Part shown: positions 5,911-23,672 of the stretch, one piece after another | Numbering within the stretch: position 1 is the stretch's first letter | How the letters are laid out: each line of letters opens with the position of its first letter | IMG/VR virus record: IMGVR_UViG_3300049629_000152 | Location: 1-28,987 of that record | From: a virus | Direction: 5' to 3' (one strand) | Length of the DNA: 28,987 nt | Notes under the pieces: model-generated | The model's database searches: none | Seen by the model: the letters and a program-made list of their open reading frames with translations, nothing else | What the model was told of the DNA's origin: nothing | Translations under genes and position numbers: made by a program

Positions 5911-5989
5911 AAAATGTAAAAAAGAATTTGAAGCAAGTACAAAAATAGCTTACTGTTCAAAAAATTGTGCTTATAATATAAAAAAATAA
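5894..5989 (+). CDS. Zinc-ribbon microprotein (31 aa)
   Basis: ATG 5894 lies inside the end of the NinG-like gene in another frame and reads 31 codons to TAA 5987. The protein is lysine-rich with four cysteines as C-x2-C...YC-x3-C (KCKKCKKEF, then AYCSKNCA). This is the same layout as the first ~25 residues of the NinG-like protein next door, so it may be a partial duplication of that zinc ribbon. The retained cysteine spacing in so short a frame supports a real product; expression is not shown. A promoter-like sequence begins inside its 3' end. Confidence 0.5.
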   Translation: MKNKCKKCKKEFEASTKIAYCSKNCAYNIKK

Positions 5990-5998
5990 TTATATTTG
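5965..5998 (+). promoter_or_regulatory. Bacteroidota-type promoter
   Basis: TTG at 5965-5967 and a perfect TATATTTG at 5991-5998, spacing 23 bases, at the long end of the flavobacterial range. The -7 box ends only three bases before the next ATG (6002), so a transcript would be leaderless or begin just inside the gene. It probably drives the small genes and the sigma-like gene downstream. Confidence 0.5.
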
Positions 5999-6001
5999 CG
6001 T

Positions 6002-6187
6002 ATGGAGAATAGAGAACTTCTTAAACAAATATTACAACTACCATTGCGTAAATGGGTAATAACGAAATATGGGACGTTTCAAGACTTTCATAAATCATGT
6101 ATGCTAATGTATGATGAGTCAGAATATACTAAAGAACTCTATTTGCATATTTTAAAGTTCTACAAAGATTTTAAAACAAAGAAATGA
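6002..6187 (+). CDS. Small phage protein (61 aa), unknown
   Basis: I chose ATG 6002 (MENRELLKQ); the frame is open from TTG 5996, but that codon is part of the promoter -7 box. The protein is basic and helical (QILQLPLRKWVITKYG, then LHILKFYKDFKTKK) with no recognised motif. Its stop overlaps the next start (ATGA at 6184-6187). The start may move downstream if the 5965 promoter is used. Confidence 0.5.
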   Translation: MENRELLKQILQLPLRKWVITKYGTFQDFHKSCMLMYDESEYTKELYLHILKFYKDFKTKK

Positions 6188-6297
6188 AACTAAGTAAGCA
6201 ACTACCAAAGAAAGTAAGACGTTTAATGTATGGAATGTATATTAAAGGGGCAAATAAAGCAATGTTGTTTGAACAATTTATTCAATTATTTTGGTAA
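6184..6297 (+). CDS. Basic microprotein (37 aa), unknown
   Basis: ATG 6184 overlaps the previous stop and reads 37 codons to TAA 6295, overlapping the proposed TTG start of the sigma-like gene. The product is strongly basic at the front (MKLSKQLPKKVRRLMYGMY) and hydrophobic at the end (LFEQFIQLFW). It fills what would otherwise be a 103-base gap with an open frame coupled on both sides, which is the main support. Translating it could carry ribosomes to the TTG start of the next gene. Confidence 0.45.
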   Translation: MKLSKQLPKKVRRLMYGMYIKGANKAMLFEQFIQLFW

Positions 6298-6830
6298 ATC
6301 AGATTAACATACTAGCAAGTAGCCACAAGCAATGGGTTGCAATAGTGGAAAACTTTGGAGAGCATACATTCTCAGAAGACATTGTACAAGAAATGTACTT
6401 AAAAGTTCTTAGAAATAACCATTTAGACAAATGTATAGTAAACGGTAAAGTAAATAGAAGTTATGTTTATATGATACTACGTACTTTACATGGAGATTTT
6501 GATAGATACAAGAAGAAACTAATCAAAAAAAAGATGTCAATTGATGAATGTAGATTCTTAACAAACGAAGAAAGTACAAATGAAGAACAAGAAGCATACG
6601 AAAACATTACAAGGTTAATTGAAGAGGAGAGTTTAACATGGGATGCATTCGACAAACTAACTTTTGATATTTACACACAAAAGAAATTAAGCATAAGAAA
6701 GATTGCTGATAAGTCAAACATTCATTACATGACTATATTTACAACGTTAAAGAGATGTAAACAGAAGTTAAGAAAGAATGTAGGCGAAAGCTACGAAGAT
6801 TACTTAAACAAGGATTTTGAACTAATATAA
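6291..6830 (+). CDS. ECF-like RNA polymerase sigma factor, probable late-gene activator
   Basis: 179 residues with two parts. Residues ~10-75 look like sigma region 2, with the hallmark SEDIVQEMYLKVL near residues 28-40. Residues ~125-165 look like region 4, a helix-turn-helix (LSIRKIADKSNIHYMTIFTTLKRCKQKLRK). No other sigma regions fit in this length, so it is of the ECF/group-IV type. It would redirect host RNA polymerase to phage promoters; the bipartite motifs at 9616, 16602, 18706 and 20994 are candidate targets. The start is probably TTG 6291: the nearest in-frame stop is just upstream and the first internal ATG (residue 35) would cut region 2. It sits directly before the terminase and structural genes. 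Confidence 0.7.
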   Translation: MVNQINILASSHKQWVAIVENFGEHTFSEDIVQEMYLKVLRNNHLDKCIVNGKVNRSYVYMILRTLHGDFDRYKKKLIKKKMSIDECRFLTNEESTNEEQEAYENITRLIEEESLTWDAFDKLTFDIYTQKKLSIRKIADKSNIHYMTIFTTLKRCKQKLRKNVGESYEDYLNKDFELI

Positions 6831-8155: not shown

Positions 8156-8422
8156 ATGAAAACACACGGAGGTAAAAGAGAGGGTGCAGGTCGTAAACCA
8201 ATTACAGAAGAAGTAAAAGGTTTTACATTAGCGTTACCACACGTTGAAGATGCTTTTAGAGTTATTGCTGAAATAATGCTAGATGAAACTAAAAGACCAA
8301 CAGATAGAATTGCAAGTGCAAAAATATTAATTGAATACGGTTGTGGTAAACCAAAAGAAACAGTAGACAATACTATAACTTTAAACGATATTAACTTAAA
8401 AGAACTTGTTAACTTTAAATAA
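8156..8422 (+). CDS. Terminase small subunit (probable)
   Basis: 88 residues opening with MKTHGGKREGAGRKP, an AT-hook-like basic motif found at the front of many Bacteroidota phage terminase small subunits and other DNA-binding phage proteins. The middle is helical (PTDRIASAKILIEYGCGKPKE), as expected for the DNA-binding and oligomerisation helices. It directly precedes and overlaps the large subunit by 17 bases. The small subunit recognises the packaging site and hands DNA to the motor. It is short for the family (usually 120-180 residues), so the call leans on the motif and its neighbour. Confidence 0.7.
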   Translation: MKTHGGKREGAGRKPITEEVKGFTLALPHVEDAFRVIAEIMLDETKRPTDRIASAKILIEYGCGKPKETVDNTITLNDINLKELVNFK

Positions 8423-9614
8423 AAAGTACATCCCATTATTTGCAAGTGATTCTCGATACTATGTTGTAACTGGTGGTCGTGGTAGTGGTAAATCATTTGG
8501 TATAACAGTATTTTTAGAGCTTCTAACGTACGAAGTCGGACACGTTATATTATTTACTAGATATACTTTAACGTCTGCTCACGTTTCTATTATTCCTGAG
8601 TTTATAGAAAAGATTGAATTGGCAGGATTACAAAACGATTTCTACATAACAAAGGATGAAATTATAAATTTAAAGACTGGTTCAAAGATATTGTTTAGAG
8701 GTATTAAAACAAGTAGCGGTAATCAAACGGCTAATCTTAAATCTTTATCAGGTGTTACAACGTGGGTGCTAGATGAAGCAGAGGAGTTAACAGACGAAGA
8801 TATATTTGATAAGATTGATTTATCTATTCGTAGTCAGATAAAACAGAATAGAGTAATTCTAGTATTAAATCCAGCAACAAAAGAGCATTTCATCTATCAA
8901 AAGTTTTTTGAAGCAAAAGGAGTTGAAGCTGGAAGCAATATTGAAAAAGGCGATACAACGTTTATACATACAACTTATGAGGATAATATAGAAAACCTTA
9001 GTGAAAGTTTCTTAAATCAAATAAAAGACGTACAGAAACGAAGACCAGAGAAGTATAAGCATACTATTTTAGGAGGTTGGTTAGATAAAGCAGAGGGTGT
9101 AATCTTTAACAATTGGAAAGTAGGCGAGTTTATAGAAGTAAGTCCAAGTATATTTGGTCAAGATTTTGGATTTAGCAATGACCCTACAACTTTAATTGAA
9201 ACTTCAATAGATAGTGCAAATAAAATTATCTATGTAAAACTACATATTTATCAAACACACTTAACTACTTCACAAGTTTACGAACTTAACAAAACATTTG
9301 CTAACGATTCACTTATAATTGCTGATTGTGCAGAGCCTAGATTAATAAACGAATTACAAGAACGAGGATTGAATATTGAACCAGCAGTTAAAGGTGCTGA
9401 TTCTGTACGTTATGGTATTGCACTATTACAAGATTACGACATGATAATAGATGAAAGTAGTATAGAGTTAATTAAAGAGTTAAATAATTATTGTTGGTTA
9501 GAGAAGAAATCAGAAACTCCGATAGATAAATATAATCACGCACTAGATGCTTTACGTTATGCAGTAACTTATCAGATAAACGAAAACCAAAATAACTTAC
9601 CATTCATTCGATAA
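8406..9614 (+). CDS. terL: Terminase large subunit
   Basis: 402 residues. ATPase domain: Walker A GGRGSGKS at 23-30, Walker B WVLDEAEE at ~120-127, coupling-type segment VLNPATKEHF. Nuclease domain with the expected acidic residues: D253 (FGQDFGFSNDP), D307 (IIADCAEP) and H378/D381 (YNHALDALRY). It pumps DNA into the prohead and cuts the concatemer; the sequence has the look of the PBSX/Terminase_3 group. The start must be non-ATG: an in-frame TAA lies three codons before TTG 8406 and the next methionine is near residue 345, so TTG 8406 is chosen. Translation is probably coupled to the small subunit through the overlap. Confidence 0.93.
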   Translation: MLTLNKKYIPLFASDSRYYVVTGGRGSGKSFGITVFLELLTYEVGHVILFTRYTLTSAHVSIIPEFIEKIELAGLQNDFYITKDEIINLKTGSKILFRGIKTSSGNQTANLKSLSGVTTWVLDEAEELTDEDIFDKIDLSIRSQIKQNRVILVLNPATKEHFIYQKFFEAKGVEAGSNIEKGDTTFIHTTYEDNIENLSESFLNQIKDVQKRRPEKYKHTILGGWLDKAEGVIFNNWKVGEFIEVSPSIFGQDFGFSNDPTTLIETSIDSANKIIYVKLHIYQTHLTTSQVYELNKTFANDSLIIADCAEPRLINELQERGLNIEPAVKGADSVRYGIALLQDYDMIIDESSIELIKELNNYCWLEKKSETPIDKYNHALDALRYAVTYQINENQNNLPFIR

Positions 9615-9615
9615 T

Positions 9616-9640
9616 ACAAATAATAAAAATAAACGTTTTA
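9616..9640 (+). promoter_or_regulatory. Putative phage late promoter 1 (ECF-like bipartite motif)
   Basis: ACAAA at 9616-9620, 11 bases, AACGTTTTA at 9632-9640, then five bases to ATG 9646. The same two boxes with the same 11-base spacing precede three other structural genes. Read as TAC-N16-CGT it has ECF-promoter geometry. It would start the tail operon with an almost leaderless mRNA. Confidence 0.55.
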
Positions 9641-9645
9641 ATATT

Positions 9646-10341
9646 ATGAAATTAGAGTTAATTATACCCGAAAGTCTTAATGAAGTTCCTTTGATGCACT
9701 ATCAACAGTTTGTAGATGATGTAAAAGGTAGTGAAGACGAAGATTACATAGGGCAAAAATTAGTCGAAAGGTTTTGTGGAATACAATTAAAAGATATAGT
9801 TACAATTAAACAAAAGGACATACTTAATTTAACTAATCATTTTAACGAACTATTCAAGAAAAAGAATGAGTTTAAAACTAGATTCAAGATACAAGGAGTT
9901 GAATTTGGATTTATAACCGATTTAGAGAACATTACAAGTGGCGAATACATAGATTTAGAAAAATACTTACAAGACGTTCAAACGCTTCATAAGGCTATGG
10001 CAGTAATGTATAGACCAATAGTTAAAGAGAAAGGCGATAAATACGAAATAGAACCTTATCAAAGTGCTTTAAACTATGCTGAGGTTATGAGATACGCTCC
10101 ACTAGATATTGTTTTAGCTTCTCAGGTTTTTTTTTGGACTTTAGGGCAACAATTGTTGAAAGCTATTCCTACCTTTTTGAATCAGGAGATGAAGAAAATG
10201 AGCAAGAAACAGCAGGCGACTTTAGTGGAGCGACTCAATTTGCAAAACAGTGGGGATGGTATACAAGTATATATGAACTCGCTCAGGGAGATGTTAGAAG
10301 ATTCGATGAAGTCACAAAACTTTCCATTCATCAATGCTTAA
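9646..10341 (+). CDS. Tail assembly chaperone (gpG-like, zero-frame product)
   Basis: 231 residues, starting five bases after the late-promoter-like motif. Mostly helical, with HKAMAVMYRPI at ~117-127 and FFWTLGQQLLKAIP after the T-run; this is the pattern of tail chaperones upstream of tape-measure genes in Bacteroidota phages. Such chaperones bind the tape measure while the tail tube forms. The gene contains a nine-T run (10127-10135). A -1 slip there leads into the overlapping frame 10134-10388, as in lambda G/GT. Both readings downstream of the slip look like protein: zero frame ends with VERLNLQNSGDGIQVYMNSL, while the -1 frame ends with a WGWYTSIYELAQGD segment. Confidence 0.75.
   Translation: MKLELIIPESLNEVPLMHYQQFVDDVKGSEDEDYIGQKLVERFCGIQLKDIVTIKQKDILNLTNHFNELFKKKNEFKTRFKIQGVEFGFITDLENITSGEYIDLEKYLQDVQTLHKAMAVMYRPIVKEKGDKYEIEPYQSALNYAEVMRYAPLDIVLASQVFFWTLGQQLLKAIPTFLNQEMKKMSKKQQATLVERLNLQNSGDGIQVYMNSLREMLEDSMKSQNFPFINA
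10128..10134 (+). promoter_or_regulatory. -1 ribosomal frameshift site (T TTT TTT)
   Basis: In the zero frame the codons are GTT TTT TTT TGG, giving a textbook X-XXY-YYZ heptamer T-TTT-TTT at 10128-10134. Slipping back one base enters the frame that ends at 10388. A short palindrome CAACAATTGTTG (10147-10158) lies 12 bases downstream, where a stimulatory structure would be expected, but its stem is only four base pairs. Confidence 0.6.
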
Positions 10342-14937: not shown

Positions 14938-16627
14938 AAAGGAAATAGAATTAGACATTAAGGTTGAAAGTATAGGTAATCTTAAAAGTCAACTTAAAGC
15001 AGCACAAAGAGAAGTAGAAACACTTGCAGAAAAGTTTGGAGCAACATCAGAACAAGCAACAGAAGCAGCAAAAAAAGCAGCACAGTTAAAAGATGCTATT
15101 GGAGATGCAAAAGCGTTAACTGATGCCTTTAATCCTGATGCTAAATTTAATGCTTTTGGTGTAGCGTTACAAGGTGTTGCTGGTGGATTTAGTGCAGTAC
15201 AAGGTGCTATGGGTTTAGTAGGTGTAGAATCTAAAGACGTTGAAGCTACCTTATTGAAAGTTCAAAGTGCAATGGCATTAAGTGAGGGATTAAACTCGGT
15301 AATGGCTGCAAAAGATTCGTTTACAAACTTAGCTGCGGTAATTGGAAAAACTGCAATAGGTCAAAAACTTTTAACTGCTGCACAAATTGCTGGTGCTGCT
15401 GCAATGAGAGTGTTGAATGTTGTAATGGCTGCAAATCCTATAATGTTAATTGTTACAGGTGTTACGGCTTTAGTAGGTGCATTTTATTTACTTACTAGGT
15501 CAACAGATAAACAAGCACTAGCAGAAAAAGAATTAAATAGACAAAAGGAGTTATCTATTAAGTTAACTAAGATACAACAAGAGGATGCAGAAAACTATGT
15601 AAAAAGTTTACAAAAAAATTCAGCAAATAAAATAGCATTAAGAAAAGCAGAGGGTGCAAATGATGAAGAAATTTATCAATTAGAGAAAGCAAGGTTAGAG
15701 GAGCAAATTAGGTATATAAAATTACTACATGATTCAGGTGTAAAATTAACTGCTGAGCAATATGCAAATCAGAAACAAGCTAAATACGATTTAAAAATAT
15801 TAGAAGCACAACATCAAACAGATTTAAAAGAAATAAGAGATAAAGCAGAAGCAGAAAGAGATGCCAAAGATAAAGAACGTAAAAAACAAAAAGCAGAAGA
15901 TGATGCAATAGAAGCAGAAAGACGTGCTATGATGGCACAAGGCGAGATAGATGCAGATGCTGCTGCGTATGCTTATTTTGCAGAACAAGATAGAAAAAGA
16001 GCAGAAGAAAAAGAAGCTGCTAGATTAAAAGAATTAGAAGATGCTCAAATGTATGCAGATTTACATGAGCAAATAAGACTTAAAGACTTACAAAACGAAA
16101 AGGAAAAAGAAGAAGCTAAAAAACAATTAAGAGCAAATCAAATTCAAGGTGTAGAAAATACGCTTGCAATGATTTCAAATCTTACTGAGTTATTTGCTGG
16201 TAAAAGTGCAAAACAACAAGAGAGAGCATTTAAAATTCAAAAGGCTATCAATATAGCAAGTGCGGTTATAGATACTTATAAGGCTGCTAATATGGCATTA
16301 GCTTCTTCTCCTCCTCCATTTAGTTTTATTGCTGCTGGTGCTGCTATTACTGCGGGTTTATTAAACGTTAAAAAAATAGCTTCTCAACAGTTTCAAGGTG
16401 GTACTGCTTCAAGTGGTGGAGGCAGTTCATTTAGTGGAGGTGGCTCAATGGCTTCAAGTGGTGGAGGTACTGCTTCAAATGTAATAACTCCAAACTTTAA
16501 TATAGTTGGTAATAACGGACAAAATCAACTTGGACAAATTGCACCCGTTCAAGCGTATGTTGTAAGTAGCGAAATGACTACACAACAAGCACTAGATAGA
16601 AACAGATTAAGAAATGCAACGTTTTAG
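14927..16627 (+). CDS. Tape measure protein (short)
   Basis: 566 residues. An Ala-rich helical front (~1-75), a small-residue hydrophobic region with a likely membrane-spanning stretch near residues 160-190 (VVMAANPIMLIVTGVTALVGAF), a long charged coiled coil (~190-400: Lys/Glu/Ala/Gln-rich), a second hydrophobic segment near 450-475, and a Gly/Ser-rich tail. This is the classic tape-measure layout. The protein sets tail length and later exits into the host envelope. At about 1.5 angstrom per residue it implies a tail near 85 nm, an estimate only. Unusually, it follows rather than precedes the large tail-tip genes. Confidence 0.85.
   Translation: MAIKKEIELDIKVESIGNLKSQLKAAQREVETLAEKFGATSEQATEAAKKAAQLKDAIGDAKALTDAFNPDAKFNAFGVALQGVAGGFSAVQGAMGLVGVESKDVEATLLKVQSAMALSEGLNSVMAAKDSFTNLAAVIGKTAIGQKLLTAAQIAGAAAMRVLNVVMAANPIMLIVTGVTALVGAFYLLTRSTDKQALAEKELNRQKELSIKLTKIQQEDAENYVKSLQKNSANKIALRKAEGANDEEIYQLEKARLEEQIRYIKLLHDSGVKLTAEQYANQKQAKYDLKILEAQHQTDLKEIRDKAEAERDAKDKERKKQKAEDDAIEAERRAMMAQGEIDADAAAYAYFAEQDRKRAEEKEAARLKELEDAQMYADLHEQIRLKDLQNEKEKEEAKKQLRANQIQGVENTLAMISNLTELFAGKSAKQQERAFKIQKAINIASAVIDTYKAANMALASSPPPFSFIAAGAAITAGLLNVKKIASQQFQGGTASSGGGSSFSGGGSMASSGGGTASNVITPNFNIVGNNGQNQLGQIAPVQAYVVSSEMTTQQALDRNRLRNATF
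16602..16626 (+). promoter_or_regulatory. Putative phage late promoter 2 (ECF-like bipartite motif)
   Basis: ACAGA at 16602-16606, 11 bases, AACGTTTTA at 16618-16626, five bases to ATG 16632. It overlaps the last codons of the tape measure gene. AAC-N16-CGT geometry is retained. The match also supports ATG 16632 over 16614 as the protease start. Confidence 0.55.
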
Positions 16628-16631
16628 AATT

Positions 16632-17213
16632 ATGAAAAAGATACAAGATATTGAAATGATTATTAGTGATGAGTCCCAAGATGGGGTTTTCGCTATTTCG
16701 CTAGTTGATAAACCAGCAATTCAAGAAGATTTTATTTATTTGTCTAGTCATGAAATTGAATTAAAGGTAGTAAACGAAGAAAAAAGAGAGGTTGTAGGTA
16801 TTGCTTTAGTTCCTGATAAAAAGATTTACAGAAATGTAGATGGTCAAGAGTTTAATATTTACTTTACTTCACAAACTATTGAAAAGACAAATGAACTTTT
16901 CATGCGTAATCTAAACCTAAATAAAATTACTTCACAACATGAAAGAGATGTTGAGGGTGTAAGTGTTATTGAAAGTTGGATTGTTGAAGATTCTAAACAG
17001 GATAAATCTAATATATATAAGTTAAACGCTCCAGTAGGTAGTTGGGTTGTAAAGATGAAAGTTTACAACGATAGCGAGTGGGTACGTGTTAAGAATGGAG
17101 AGTACAAAGGTTTCTCAATTGAGGGCAAATATAAAGAAGCAGAAGTAAAAGCGAGTGAGCAAGTAGATGAAACTACTGAGCTAATAAATGAAATAGAAAA
17201 CTTAATTAAATGA
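16632..17213 (+). CDS. XkdF-like prohead maturation protease (putative)
   Basis: 193 residues from ATG 16632; ATG 16614 is in frame but lies inside the promoter-like motif. The sequence follows the XkdF-like pattern closely: GVFAISLVDKPAIQEDFIYL at ~18-37, VVGIALVPDKKIYR, SQHERDVEGVSVIESWIVED at ~101-120 and KNGEYKGFSIEG near 155-166. His103 and Ser115 are candidate catalytic residues by analogy with phage prohead serine proteases; the third residue is not identified. The enzyme would cut scaffold and capsid N-termini during head maturation. It opens the head module, ahead of scaffold and capsid genes. Confidence 0.8.
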   Translation: MKKIQDIEMIISDESQDGVFAISLVDKPAIQEDFIYLSSHEIELKVVNEEKREVVGIALVPDKKIYRNVDGQEFNIYFTSQTIEKTNELFMRNLNLNKITSQHERDVEGVSVIESWIVEDSKQDKSNIYKLNAPVGSWVVKMKVYNDSEWVRVKNGEYKGFSIEGKYKEAEVKASEQVDETTELINEIENLIK

Positions 17214-18699: not shown

Positions 18700-18705
18700 T
18701 ATATA

Positions 18706-18730
18706 ACAGAGTAATTAACTAAACGTTTCA
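18706..18730 (+). promoter_or_regulatory. Putative phage late promoter 3 (ECF-like bipartite motif)
   Basis: ACAGA at 18706-18710, 11 bases, AACGTTTCA at 18722-18730, six bases to ATG 18737. One C/T difference from the other boxes. It would drive the scaffold and major capsid genes, the highest-demand products. Confidence 0.5.
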
Positions 18731-18736
18731 AGTATA

Positions 18737-19342
18737 ATGAAAGATAAATTAAAAAGCGTTAGAGAGTTTTTAGAGCAAAAATTCAACGTGAAATTAAAGT
18801 TAGAACAAATGGAGGTAAAATTAGCACAAATGAAACTTGCTGATGGTGTTACTGTTTTAGAGTTCGATGCCTTAGAAGTTGGTAAAGAAATTTTCATTGT
18901 TTCAGAAAATGGAAATGTACCAATGCCTATTGGAGAGTACGAACTTGAGGATGGTAATATGTTGGAAATTTACGAAGATGGTATCATTGGAGAAATTAAA
19001 GCACCTGAGGCAAAAGAAGAAGAAGCACCAGCAGAAGCACCAGAAGCTGAAATGCCAGTTGAGGCATCAGTTGAAGCACCACAAGTAGCTAAGAAAACAG
19101 TTGAAACAGTATCTAAAGAAACGTATTTCTCAGAAATGGAAGAGTTAAAGAGAGAAATTACTGAACTTAAAGAACAGTTAAAACTAAAAGAGGAGGTTAA
19201 AGAGGTAGTATTGGAAGAAACTCCAAAACCTATAACTTTTAATCCTGAGAATGTTCAGAAAATAGAGCAAATTAAATTAACTGCTCAAAAAACACTATCA
19301 GCAAGAGATAGAATTTTAAACACTATTTACAACAACAAATAA
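18737..19342 (+). CDS. Capsid scaffolding protein (probable)
   Basis: 201 residues, directly upstream of the major capsid gene. The front is a coiled coil (LKSVREFLEQKFNVKLKLEQ), then a small beta unit (ADGVTVLEFDALEVGKEIFI with MPIGEYELEDGNML), a Pro/Glu/Ala-rich linker near residues 95-120, and a second coiled coil (SEMEELKREITELKEQLKLK) ending in a basic helix. Low complexity, high charge and helicity are typical of internal scaffolds that are removed by the protease. The C-terminal basic helix would contact the capsid protein. The role is inferred from position and composition. Confidence 0.7.
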   Translation: MKDKLKSVREFLEQKFNVKLKLEQMEVKLAQMKLADGVTVLEFDALEVGKEIFIVSENGNVPMPIGEYELEDGNMLEIYEDGIIGEIKAPEAKEEEAPAEAPEAEMPVEASVEAPQVAKKTVETVSKETYFSEMEELKREITELKEQLKLKEEVKEVVLEETPKPITFNPENVQKIEQIKLTAQKTLSARDRILNTIYNNK

Positions 19343-20388: not shown

Positions 20389-20937
20389 ATGGCTTGTGAT
20401 TTAGCAAACGGTAGAGCAGAGAGTTGTAAAGATGCAGTAGGTGGTATTGACATCATTTACATTGCAAACTTCAATCCTACTATGCAAAGTGATTTAACGT
20501 ATGATGTAACGTCTACGGATATGATTACTGATGTAAACAATATTTCTAACCTTTATAAGTTTTCTTTAAAAGGTAATAACTCATTTAATCAAAAAGGTGT
20601 TTCTTCAAGGGAAAACGGAACAACTTACTTTGAACAAACTTTGACTATTGACTTGAAAAAACAAGACGTAGCTACGACTAAGATGGTTAAATTATTATCT
20701 TATGGTAGACCACATATTGTTGTAAGAAATAGACAAGGGCAATACTTCTTAGCTGGTTTAGAGTTCGGAATGGATGTTACAGAGTCTGGAATTGAAAACG
20801 GTGTTCAAATGGGAGATTTCAATGGATATAAACTTACATTTACTGGAATGGAAAGAATACCAGCAAATCATTTGAACTGTTCAACAGAAGCTGCTTTAGC
20901 AACTTTATTTAGTTCTGCTACTATTGTTACTTCTTAG
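20389..20937 (+). CDS. Probable major tail (tube) protein
   Basis: 182 residues beginning MACDLANGRAESCKDAVGG. The rest is an alternating beta fold with a central helix (LTIDLKKQDVATTKMVKLLSYG), then HIVVRNRQGQYFLAGLEFGMDV and GYKLTFTGMERIPA, consistent with a tail-tube or major tail fold. It is bracketed by two terminators, an arrangement suited to high, independent expression. No promoter of either class is recognised in the 25 bases after the upstream terminator, so it may depend on readthrough. Tail tube is preferred over a second capsid protein by size and fold pattern. Confidence 0.65.
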   Translation: MACDLANGRAESCKDAVGGIDIIYIANFNPTMQSDLTYDVTSTDMITDVNNISNLYKFSLKGNNSFNQKGVSSRENGTTYFEQTLTIDLKKQDVATTKMVKLLSYGRPHIVVRNRQGQYFLAGLEFGMDVTESGIENGVQMGDFNGYKLTFTGMERIPANHLNCSTEAALATLFSSATIVTS

Positions 20938-20957
20938 TAATTAACTACTACTACATG

Positions 20958-20988
20958 AAAGGCTATCTTTAATTAGGTAGCCTTTTTT
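20958..20988 (+). terminator. Rho-independent terminator after the tail-tube gene
   Basis: AAAGGCTATC (20958-20967) pairs with GGTAGCCTTT (20976-20985), one G-T pair, eight-base loop, then T residues to 20988. A late-promoter-like motif starts six bases later. Confidence 0.85.
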
Positions 20989-20993
20989 ATTTA

Positions 20994-21018
20994 ACAAATT
21001 ATTGATTTAAACGTTTTA
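20994..21018 (+). promoter_or_regulatory. Putative phage late promoter 4 (ECF-like bipartite motif)
   Basis: ACAAA at 20994-20998, 11 bases, AACGTTTTA at 21010-21018, five bases to ATG 21024. AAC-N16-CGT geometry is exact. Its position directly after a terminator is what a real promoter would need, because the downstream portal operon otherwise has none. Confidence 0.6.
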
Positions 21019-21023
21019 AAGAT

Positions 21024-21356
21024 ATGATAGTTTTAAGAGAACAAAATACTGCTCAAACATTTAGTTTCATTCCTCGTAGTGATACTTATACTACTATGAC
21101 TATAACGGATGAACAAACGAATGTAACTACTACGGTTGCCATTACAAGTTCAACGAATGTAAGCTATTACCATACGATTACGGCAACTTTCTCACTAATT
21201 GAGGAGCATACATATAGGTTAGAGGTTTTAAACTCAACTACACTAGTTTATATAGATAAAATATACTGTACTAATCAGACTATTTCAGACTATACAATAA
21301 ATAAAGATGTGTACACAAGTACAACTACATCAAATGACTTCATAATTTTAGATTAA
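21024..21356 (+). CDS. Small beta-sandwich structural protein (110 aa)
   Basis: Thr/Ser/Tyr-rich, with alternating strands (TFSFIPRSDTYTTMTITDEQ, YYHTITATFSLIEEHTYRLEVL) and an end segment KIYCTNQTISDYTINKDVY. It looks like one immunoglobulin-like or fibre-type beta-sandwich. It begins the operon that contains the portal and ends by sharing a base with the portal start. It may be a head or tail decoration; no firm function. Confidence 0.55.
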   Translation: MIVLREQNTAQTFSFIPRSDTYTTMTITDEQTNVTTTVAITSSTNVSYYHTITATFSLIEEHTYRLEVLNSTTLVYIDKIYCTNQTISDYTINKDVYTSTTTSNDFIILD

Positions 21357-23086
21357 TGGATAACGAAAAAATACAAGTAATCAACCTTGCTGAATATAAA
21401 GCACCGATTATTAACGAAAGTACTAGAGAGGATTGGGTTGAATACGGCGAGGATAACAACTATTTCCAATTCTTAATTGATAGACATATAAATAGTGCTA
21501 CAAATAACGCAGTAATTAATAATATTACTAGACTTATTTACGGTAAAGGGTTGACTGCATTAGACGCTAATAAAAAACCTAATGAATTTGCTCAATTAAT
21601 TACTTTGATTAGTTCGGAGGATTTAAGAAAAATTAGTGTTGAAGCGTATTTATTAGGTCAATGTGCTATTCAAGTACACTACGATAAAGGTAGAACTAAG
21701 ATATTAAAAGCGTATCATATACCTGTTCAATTATTACGTGCTGAAAAGTGCAATGAAGATGGAGAGATTACTGGTTATTACTATTCTGATAATTGGGAAG
21801 ATGTTAAAAAATACAAACCTAAAAGATTAGATGCTTTTGGTTTTGGTAAATCAGAAATTGAAATACTTTATGTTAAACCTTATTCAGTAGGCATGAAGTA
21901 TTACTCAAACGTTACTTATACGGGTGGTTTACCTTATACGATAATGGAGGAGGAAATTGCGGAGTATTTAATTAACGATGTTCAAAACGGGTTTAGTCCT
22001 ACAATGATAGTTAACTTTGTTGGAGGTACGGGAACGGAGGAGCAAAGAAGACAAATTGAAGCACAAGCGAATAAAAAGTTAACGGGAAGCAAAGGTAAAA
22101 AGATAGTTTATTCATTCAATAAAAATAAGGATAACGCTACTACGGTTGAATCTATTCCTTTGAATGATGCACCAGCACACTATCAATATTTGAGTGAGGA
22201 GTGTATGCGTAAGATATTACTTTCACATAATGTTACTTCGCCTTTATTATTTGGTATTGCAACAACAACTGGATTTTCTTCTAATGCAGACGAATTAAAA
22301 AACTCTTTATTAATATTTGATAACTTGGTAATTAAACCATATCAAAACTTAATTATAGATGCAATAGATAAGATTTTAGCAGTTAACGGAATTAGTTTAA
22401 AACTATACTTCGAGGGTTTAAATCCTTTTGAAGATATGTTTGCTAAAAAAGAAGAAGCAATTGTTCAAGATACAACTTTATCTAGTCAAGAATTAGACTT
22501 ATCAGAATTTGGAGAGGAGTTAAACGAAGATGAATGGATATTAATTGATTCGCATAAAGTTGATTATGATAATGAGGATGAATTAGATGCAAAAATAAAT
22601 GAGTTAAATAACCAAAAACCAACAAAATTAAAGCAAATAATTAACCTAGTTAAAACGGGTGTAGCAAATCCAAACGCTTCATCTAGTCAAGATGGCGAAA
22701 TATTCAAGTCAAGATATAGATATAGTGGTAATATAGGCGAAAATTCAAGAGCATTCTGTAAAGCAATGTTAAGTTCTAATAAAGTATATCGTAAAGAGGA
22801 TATTATTAGAATGGAGGCACAAGAAGTAAATAAAGGTTGGGGTCCCGAGGGAGCAGATAACTACTCTATTTGGTTATATAAAGGAGGAGGAGATTGCCAC
22901 CATTATTGGACTAGAGAAACCTATTTAAGAAAATCAGATGTTAACTCTCCATTAGCTAAAAAATTCACTCCAAGCGAAGCAAGAAAACAAGGAGAGATAT
23001 TACCAACAAATGATAATAGAGTATATCAAAAACCAAAAGATATGCCTTATAATGGATTTTTACCTACAAATAAACGCTTTAAATAA
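21356..23086 (+). CDS. Portal protein with C-terminal MuF-like extension
   Basis: 576 residues. Residues ~1-410 look like a portal: DWVEYGEDNNYFQFLIDRH near the front, NAVINNITRLIYGKGL, a wing and stem (IMEEEIAEYLINDVQNGFSPTM), then YLSEECMRKILLSHNVTSPLLFG and LLIFDNLVIKPYQNLIIDAI, matching the portal stem/clip order. Residues ~465-576 form a separate domain (SRYRYSG..., ENSRAFCKAML, KVYRKEDI, GADNYSIWLYKGGGDCHHYW), with a C-H-H-x-W cluster resembling the CRH segment of MuF/gp7 head-morphogenesis proteins. The portal forms the dodecameric DNA gate at the head vertex. It lies far from terminase, an unusual arrangement. Confidence 0.8.
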   Translation: MDNEKIQVINLAEYKAPIINESTREDWVEYGEDNNYFQFLIDRHINSATNNAVINNITRLIYGKGLTALDANKKPNEFAQLITLISSEDLRKISVEAYLLGQCAIQVHYDKGRTKILKAYHIPVQLLRAEKCNEDGEITGYYYSDNWEDVKKYKPKRLDAFGFGKSEIEILYVKPYSVGMKYYSNVTYTGGLPYTIMEEEIAEYLINDVQNGFSPTMIVNFVGGTGTEEQRRQIEAQANKKLTGSKGKKIVYSFNKNKDNATTVESIPLNDAPAHYQYLSEECMRKILLSHNVTSPLLFGIATTTGFSSNADELKNSLLIFDNLVIKPYQNLIIDAIDKILAVNGISLKLYFEGLNPFEDMFAKKEEAIVQDTTLSSQELDLSEFGEELNEDEWILIDSHKVDYDNEDELDAKINELNNQKPTKLKQIINLVKTGVANPNASSSQDGEIFKSRYRYSGNIGENSRAFCKAMLSSNKVYRKEDIIRMEAQEVNKGWGPEGADNYSIWLYKGGGDCHHYWTRETYLRKSDVNSPLAKKFTPSEARKQGEILPTNDNRVYQKPKDMPYNGFLPTNKRFK

Positions 23087-23586: not shown

Positions 23587-23672
23587 AAAAAGAGGCTAAA
23601 AATAACAACTTAAAGAAAATAACGTTATTATTAAAGAAGTTAGAAAAAGATGAGCAATCAAAGAATAAGTGA
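23583..23672 (+). CDS. Lysine-rich microprotein (29 aa)
   Basis: ATG 23583 overlaps the connector stop (ATGA) and the frame continues 29 codons to TGA 23670, overlapping the next start. The product is a single charged helix (KKITLLLKKLEKDEQSKNK). It fills the gap between two coupled genes, but a late-promoter-like element runs through the same bases, so it may not be a gene at all. Confidence 0.35.
   Translation: MKKEAKNNNLKKITLLLKKLEKDEQSKNK
23605..23629 (+). promoter_or_regulatory. Weaker candidate late promoter 5
   Basis: ACAAC at 23605-23609, 11 bases, AACGTTATT at 23621-23629. The AAC-N16-CGT skeleton (23604 and 23623) is exact, but both boxes carry mismatches and the next ATG (23650) is 20 bases away. 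It would serve the fibre and lysis genes. Confidence 0.3.

Follow-up and report, generated by a model that had tools for sequence, protein, structure and literature searches.

A phage-encoded ECF-type sigma factor and its predicted late promoters, set at a fixed distance from the start codon, in a group of Bacteroidota phages

The sigma gene and its operon

The window, meaning the whole stretch of DNA analysed, is the complete IMG/VR virus record IMGVR_UViG_3300049629_000152 and is 28987 bases long. An ORF on its + strand at 6291..6830 encodes a protein of 179 aa from a TTG start and was identified as an ECF-type sigma gene from the ORF itself, from profile matches and from a predicted structure. 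The first Met after the TTG is located within the conserved region-2 motif. A small ORF upstream has its stop overlapped by this TTG, and the same layout recurs in near relatives. A 37-aa ORF (6184..6297, + strand), with a frame that near relatives largely preserve, overlaps the start of the sigma gene by 7 nt, and translational coupling of the two is possible.

The terminase large subunit gene (TerL; 8406..9614, + strand) marks the start of the late block. The original prediction had put the sigma gene just before terminase and this is loosely right: small ORFs occupy the stretch from the end of the gene at 6830 to the start of TerL at 8406.

The host-type promoter of the sigma operon is followed first by a small ORF (6002..6187, + strand), the ATG of which is 3 nt past the -7 element, TATATTTG (5991..5998, + strand). 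This box was present in 7/7 window-clade records while its flanks had diverged. A TTG at 5965..5967 (+ strand) is a weak candidate for a -33 element; it is 23 nt from the -7 box and this part is doubtful because such a spacing is long. Thus, of the host-type promoter previously proposed at 5965-5998, the box stands and the TTG is in question. Several other branches have a host-type promoter 13–23 nt before the sigma gene. When 1.5 kb upstream of the sigma gene was searched for a strict host-type promoter, 19/48 records had one and the other 29/48 gave none, hence the early promoter is only partly documented. The next ATG lies 3–4 nt past the TATATTTG box in the window (5991-6004) and in relatives G001-G003 and G016-G018, so the early message of the sigma operon may also be near-leaderless; in F. 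johnsoniae the start comes 4–5 nt past the box.

The protein is an ECF sigma factor with regions 2 and 4

The protein is a member of the sigma-70 family of the ECF type (group 4), comprising only region 2 (about residues 1-81, including the sequence EDIVQEMY) and region 4 (about residues 98-169), without sigma1.1 or sigma3. The TIGR02937 sigma70-ECF model matched residues 25-163 with E 7e-10 and a score of 38.7 bits, which is below the curated cut-off of 42.9, a rule of the library rather than a biological criterion. In the alignment of relatives 20/20 members matched this model, with a best E of 1.5e-12. The PHROG 'RNA polymerase sigma factor' families also matched the window protein (E 4e-8 and 2e-4), as did the Bacteroidota ECF subfamily models Sig70_bacteroi1 and PG0214, and a Pfam search gave weak HTH matches only. 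Matches to sequences in the PDB included 1h3l (E 0.0026), which we take to be the SigR region-2 structure. The most conserved stretch of the 20 aligned sequences was EDIVQEMY, which corresponds to region 2.2, where sigma factors bind the polymerase, and the invariant columns included G23, D30, V32, Q33, E34, M35 and Y36. Beyond region 4 most relatives have a conserved tail, NVGEDYEDYxNxDYELI, which is absent from the branch containing Nonlabens phage P12024L.

An AlphaFold2 model built from the 20-row alignment gave a pLDDT of 84 and a pTM of 0.46. It contained both the sigma2 and the sigma4 fold, a lack of which had been named as grounds for rejecting the original prediction; the two-domain, ECF-size protein foreseen there is upheld by this model together with the TIGR02937 match. 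A Foldseek search with the model returned E. coli sigmaE first (E 2.8e-4), followed by Mtb SigL, SigH, AlgU and SigW, and the model aligned to sigmaE, SigL, SigH and AlgU across both domains. The large rmsd over both domains arises because their relative placement, as the pTM also indicates, is not fixed in the model. Taken singly, region 4 aligned to sigmaE region 4 with -35 DNA (2h27) over 69 residues with an rmsd of 1.8 and a Z of 9.5, and region 2 to sigmaE region 2 with -10 DNA (4lup) over 76 residues with an rmsd of 2.8 and a Z of 8.4.

Late promoters in the window

The original prediction also spoke of an ECF-like motif before the structural operons, giving no coordinates for it. Such a motif does exist. 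The pattern AACARA-N12-ACGTTTYA, with one mismatch allowed, was found four times in the window, always on the + strand, against 0.23 copies expected, and 0/100 shuffles reached four copies. The first putative late promoter, tACAAA-N12-ACGTTTTA (9615..9645, + strand), precedes the gene after TerL and its predicted +1 is the A of the ATG at 9646. The second, AACAGA-N12-ACGTTTTA (16601..16631, + strand), is situated within the end of the upstream gene and has its predicted +1 at the ATG at 16632 of a head maturation protease-like gene; the listed start of this gene at 16614 is probably wrong, since the promoter places the start at 16632. The third, AACAGA-N12-ACGTTTCA (18705..18736, + strand), has its predicted +1 one base before the ATG at 18737. 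The fourth, AACAAA-N12-ACGTTTTA (20993..21023, + strand), has its predicted +1 at the ATG at 21024 and fronts the operon containing the portal gene (21356-23086). It is abutted on its upstream side by a hairpin with a T run resembling an intrinsic terminator (20958..20992, + strand; -14.1 kcal/mol, z -4.9).

The TAnnTTTG box of host promoters is absent from the late sites of the window. Clear copies of the motif were not found before several of the window's late genes, for example that at 20389. An apparently perfect element, ATAACAAC-N12-ACGTTATTAT at about 23605-23650 and 28 nt before an ATG, recurs in near relatives; it was not counted, being in a short stretch that appeared coding-like by eye.

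Gene and motif among relatives

The sigma gene was confirmed in at least 532 uncultivated viral contigs. Among cultured phages Nonlabens phage P12024L is the closest (TerL 54%, portal 37%). When 50,697 phage records were searched by tblastn with the window protein, nothing matched at E<=1, a search which also missed the homolog in P12024L, and no DNA near-match was present in the phage collection. Searching 84,980 bacterial and archaeal species genomes gave 282 matches, none confirmed as a prophage relative, though the search rested on only two short patterns and a relative may have been missed.

By profile search 33 of 34 records carry one sigma gene. The exception, G022, has its contig end near TerL with only 648 nt upstream of that gene. 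An unbiased test of co-occurrence was provided by 80 loci picked by TerL alone. The sigma gene was upstream of TerL, at a median distance of 707 nt, in 46/46 of those loci with at least 2600 nt of upstream sequence and in 13/14 with 1300-2600 nt, hence in 59/60 with at least 1300 nt; it was seen in 3/20 loci with less than 1300 nt. The single miss, L084, has 1599 nt upstream, about the distance from sigma gene to TerL in its clade (1576 in the window), and is attributed to truncation by the contig end. Three Bacteroidota phages whose TerL is related and in which an HMM search found no sigma gene, RAP44, Harreka_1 and BS-TP2 (the last searched across 50000 of 57555 bases), had one site each, equal to their own background. 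A relative which keeps the motif and lacks the gene, the other finding that had been said to count against the prediction, was not encountered among these TerL-selected loci and sigma-less phages. By TerL, OQ791282.1, 'Shigella phage Henu10', clusters with Riemerella phages and its host label is possibly wrong.

A fixed distance from motif to start codon

The relation of the motif to the start codon was missed in the original prediction. In a loose search of 29 records a peak was observed at a G-to-A distance of 11, with 125 sites against 28-73 at other distances. An EM run in which the distance was left free gave 63/152 sites sharing one distance and 89/152 sharing one spacer. When 49 records were searched with a gene filter, 156 sites, a count which like the others includes homologous sites of close relatives, had a TT-to-ATG offset of 8, and the opposite strand gave 3. 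The 23 other offsets had 4 to 41 sites with a mean of 17.3, and the neighbouring offsets 7 and 9 were at background.

A pattern lacking any ATG found exactly seven sites in P12024L, all on the + strand. The predicted +1 coincided with the annotated start codon at six of these (179, 3031, 5412, 24771, 26011 and 27612) and was one base off the start at 22090 at the seventh. The same ATG-free search in the window gave a predicted +1 that was exact at 3/4 sites and off by one at 1/4. The -10 box of P12024L is CGTTAATA, compared with CGTTTYA in the window.

The start is predicted at or near the A of the ATG because the -10 box is found at one fixed distance from it. With the A taken as +1, AACA falls at -32 to -29 and GTT at -11 to -9 in most sites of P12024L, which is the register of SigH; the AACA box of the window is one base closer. 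In the available part of the account of the Mtb SigH open complex the -35 sequence GGAACA is at -34 to -29 and the -10 sequence is GTT with T-10 and T-9 (PMC6411747). Agreement with the geometry of published ECF promoters requires a transcription start at the A or within one base of it, from which leaderless late mRNAs are predicted. We consider such mRNAs somewhat more probable than not.

The bases at -12/-11 change together within each phage

In the same register, AACA and the TT at -10/-9 define the search and are constant by construction, whereas -12/-11 were left free. These two bases were CG in the window clade, P12024L, G045, G046 and G047, AG in most phages, GG in G005 and G019, TG in G036, TA in G041, G044 and G050, and AA in G048; the motif is thus not uniform, A replacing G at -11 in some branches. 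Among 27 representatives of less than 80% identity, 26 of which had two or more sites (100 sites), the within-genome concordance of the pair was 0.545 compared with a permutation mean of 0.22 and a maximum of 0.36 in 5000 permutations. Agreement was strong for the pair and for -12 alone. It was weaker when -11 was taken by itself, at 0.64 compared with 0.54 for the null mean, a value that 0.64 being reached in 0.5% of shuffles. Since the promoters of one phage are not descended from each other, the agreement within each phage points to a shared trans-acting factor, presumably a single reader of all of them.

Covariation of columns of the sigma alignment with these bases, a check put forward with the original prediction, was not specific. 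The top columns for -12 included 124, 151, 80 and 72, and those for -11 included 164, 38, 126, 61 and 72. The top columns are spread over both domains, so relatedness probably dominates the signal.

Host-type and phage-type promoters are partitioned

Host-type promoters, defined as TTG-N-TAnnTTTG in intergenic regions, were compared with phage-type promoters in 46 of 49 records, the three having no match to the window TerL being left out. When contig ends were ignored, 102 phage-type promoters were late and 40 were other, and 1 host-type promoter was late and 69 were other; this split takes no account of the differing cut points of the contigs. Wrapping around the contig ends gave 135 late and 11 other for the phage type and 14 late and 60 other for the host type, and is the looser split, in which those 14 host-type promoters were counted as late. 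The early-to-late switch put forward in the original prediction is supported in silico by the motif, by its co-occurrence with the gene and by this partition of promoters.

Discussion

The above results make it probable, on the evidence of sequence, that the phage-encoded ECF-type sigma factor acts on the late promoters of its own phage. The host housekeeping sigma would read the TATATTTG promoter early in infection and the sigma operon would be made. The phage sigma would then join the host RNA polymerase core and direct it to the late promoters, where it would recognise two boxes, AACAAA near -31 and NGTT at roughly -12 to -9. The promoters it would read front the packaging, head and tail operons. 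From the geometry, transcription would start at the A of the ATG or within one base of it, giving leaderless late mRNAs, and the phage sigma would fix both the promoter and the start codon. That an entire lineage of Bacteroidota phages joins promoter to start codon, uses a single ECF sigma to begin late transcription at the A of the ATG in most late operons, has its structural genes translated from leaderless mRNAs in a phylum most of whose own messages carry leaders, and lets sigma and -12/-11 bases drift together is a generalisation that we lean towards with some reservation.

Bacteroidota encode many ECF sigmas, and one of these might read the motif while the phage protein has another function, for instance the redirection of host promoters. 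The match of the phage protein to the Bacteroidota models Sig70_bacteroi1 and PG0214 would fit with this. However, the three sigma-less Bacteroidota phages do not have the element above background, the bases at -12/-11 shift in concert in any one phage, and gene and element travel together, and a host reader appears improbable. The phage protein might instead be an activator of the Xpf/ArpU type, which aids the host holoenzyme and does not replace its sigma. It has a weak match at residues 73-167 to PRK06930, a positive control sigma-like factor, and its gene is upstream of terminase as in PBSX. Set against these are a complete region 2, in which the polymerase-facing EDIVQEMY is the most conserved part of the protein, and late sites in the window which have no host TAnnTTTG box, and we regard such an activator as decidedly improbable.

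An element at a fixed distance from the ATG could be a Kozak-like signal for the initiation of translation instead of a promoter. Bacteroidota, according to the portion of PMC6847099 available, have no Shine-Dalgarno sites and use upstream bases. The determinants named in that portion are A-3 and A-6 (PMC6847099), whereas the element has two boxes, some 31 and 11 nt before the ATG and spaced like the -35 and -10 boxes of ECF promoters, and late promoter 4 adjoins a terminator-like hairpin; we therefore give very little credence to a translation signal. The protein could also be a true late sigma with messages that carry short leaders or begin slightly away from the A, by a few bases, the fixed spacing being a result of genome compaction. 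Phage genomes are compact, and of the predicted transcripts of F. johnsoniae 87% have leaders of more than 10 nt, with a mean of 33, in the same part of that source (PMC6847099). Compaction, however, predicts a range of distances, and offsets 7 and 9 had 13 and 19 sites against 156 at offset 8, so that this variant is somewhat unlikely and a start on or beside the A of the ATG is preferred.

Late sigmas of the ECF type are already known from phages. The phages phiEco32 and 7-11 and the Kuravirus group likewise have an ECF-type sigma, and in phages of the phiEco32 kind phage-specific promoters are at structural genes and host promoters at early genes, a division with which the in silico partition agrees. 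The late consensus of this kind, TAATGTATA, does not have the AACAAA box of the present element, and the available portions of these papers report no locking to the start codon (PMC4331800, PMC7881722).

The gene for Xpf of PBSX, a prophage of a Firmicute and not of a member of the Bacteroidota, is upstream of terminase like the sigma gene here. The window protein has only a weak profile match to this type of factor (PRK06930, residues 73-167, E 0.002, 17.9 bits). As far as the accessible text of the source goes, Xpf also has sigma2 and sigma4, belongs to group IV and is a phage-linked positive control factor (PMC10141391). The present system would resemble those of phiEco32 and Xpf in how it operates; this is not a statement of membership by sequence. 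SigH of Mycobacterium tuberculosis and SigR of Streptomyces are stress sigmas with an anti-sigma. They are bacterial sigmas of a GC-rich host with GG in the -35 box, unlike the phage system. Their promoters, in the part of the source available, have an AACA -35 and a GTT -10 at the same positions relative to +1 as the phage element (PMC6411747).

The homolog in P12024L, P12024L_35 (JQ823123.1), has 24% identity, is in the same place and is annotated 'Sigma-70 region 2'; it is shorter than the window protein, does not have the conserved C-terminal tail and is accompanied by the same element at the seven sites described above. No paper on the sigma or the late promoters of P12024-like phages was found in the open-licence literature, and in the available parts of PMC8776804 and PMC7077304 P12024 appears in reference lists only. 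Four things are new: the lineage of phages, an element made up of AACAAA and NGTT, the fixed position of this element relative to the start codon, and the concerted drift of its bases. Phage mRNAs without a leader are known in themselves, phage transcripts being often leaderless according to the part of the AR9 paper available (PMC5312081).

The late switch of a widespread group of Bacteroidota phages can thus be read from sequence, and the cultured P12024L permits testing. If late messages do lack leaders, the phage bypasses the initiation signals of its host that depend on a leader, and it would offer a natural model for leaderless translation in Bacteroidota, which is little documented in the literature consulted. 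Sigmas with differing -12/-11 preferences and otherwise constant promoters form a natural series for the study of ECF promoter specificity, and the sigma/promoter set might supply orthogonal promoters for use in Bacteroidota.

Elsewhere in the window, at 2507-2572, tandem 11-nt repeats (CTAACAAACAA) were observed within a DnaD-like helicase loader gene and may be origin iterons.
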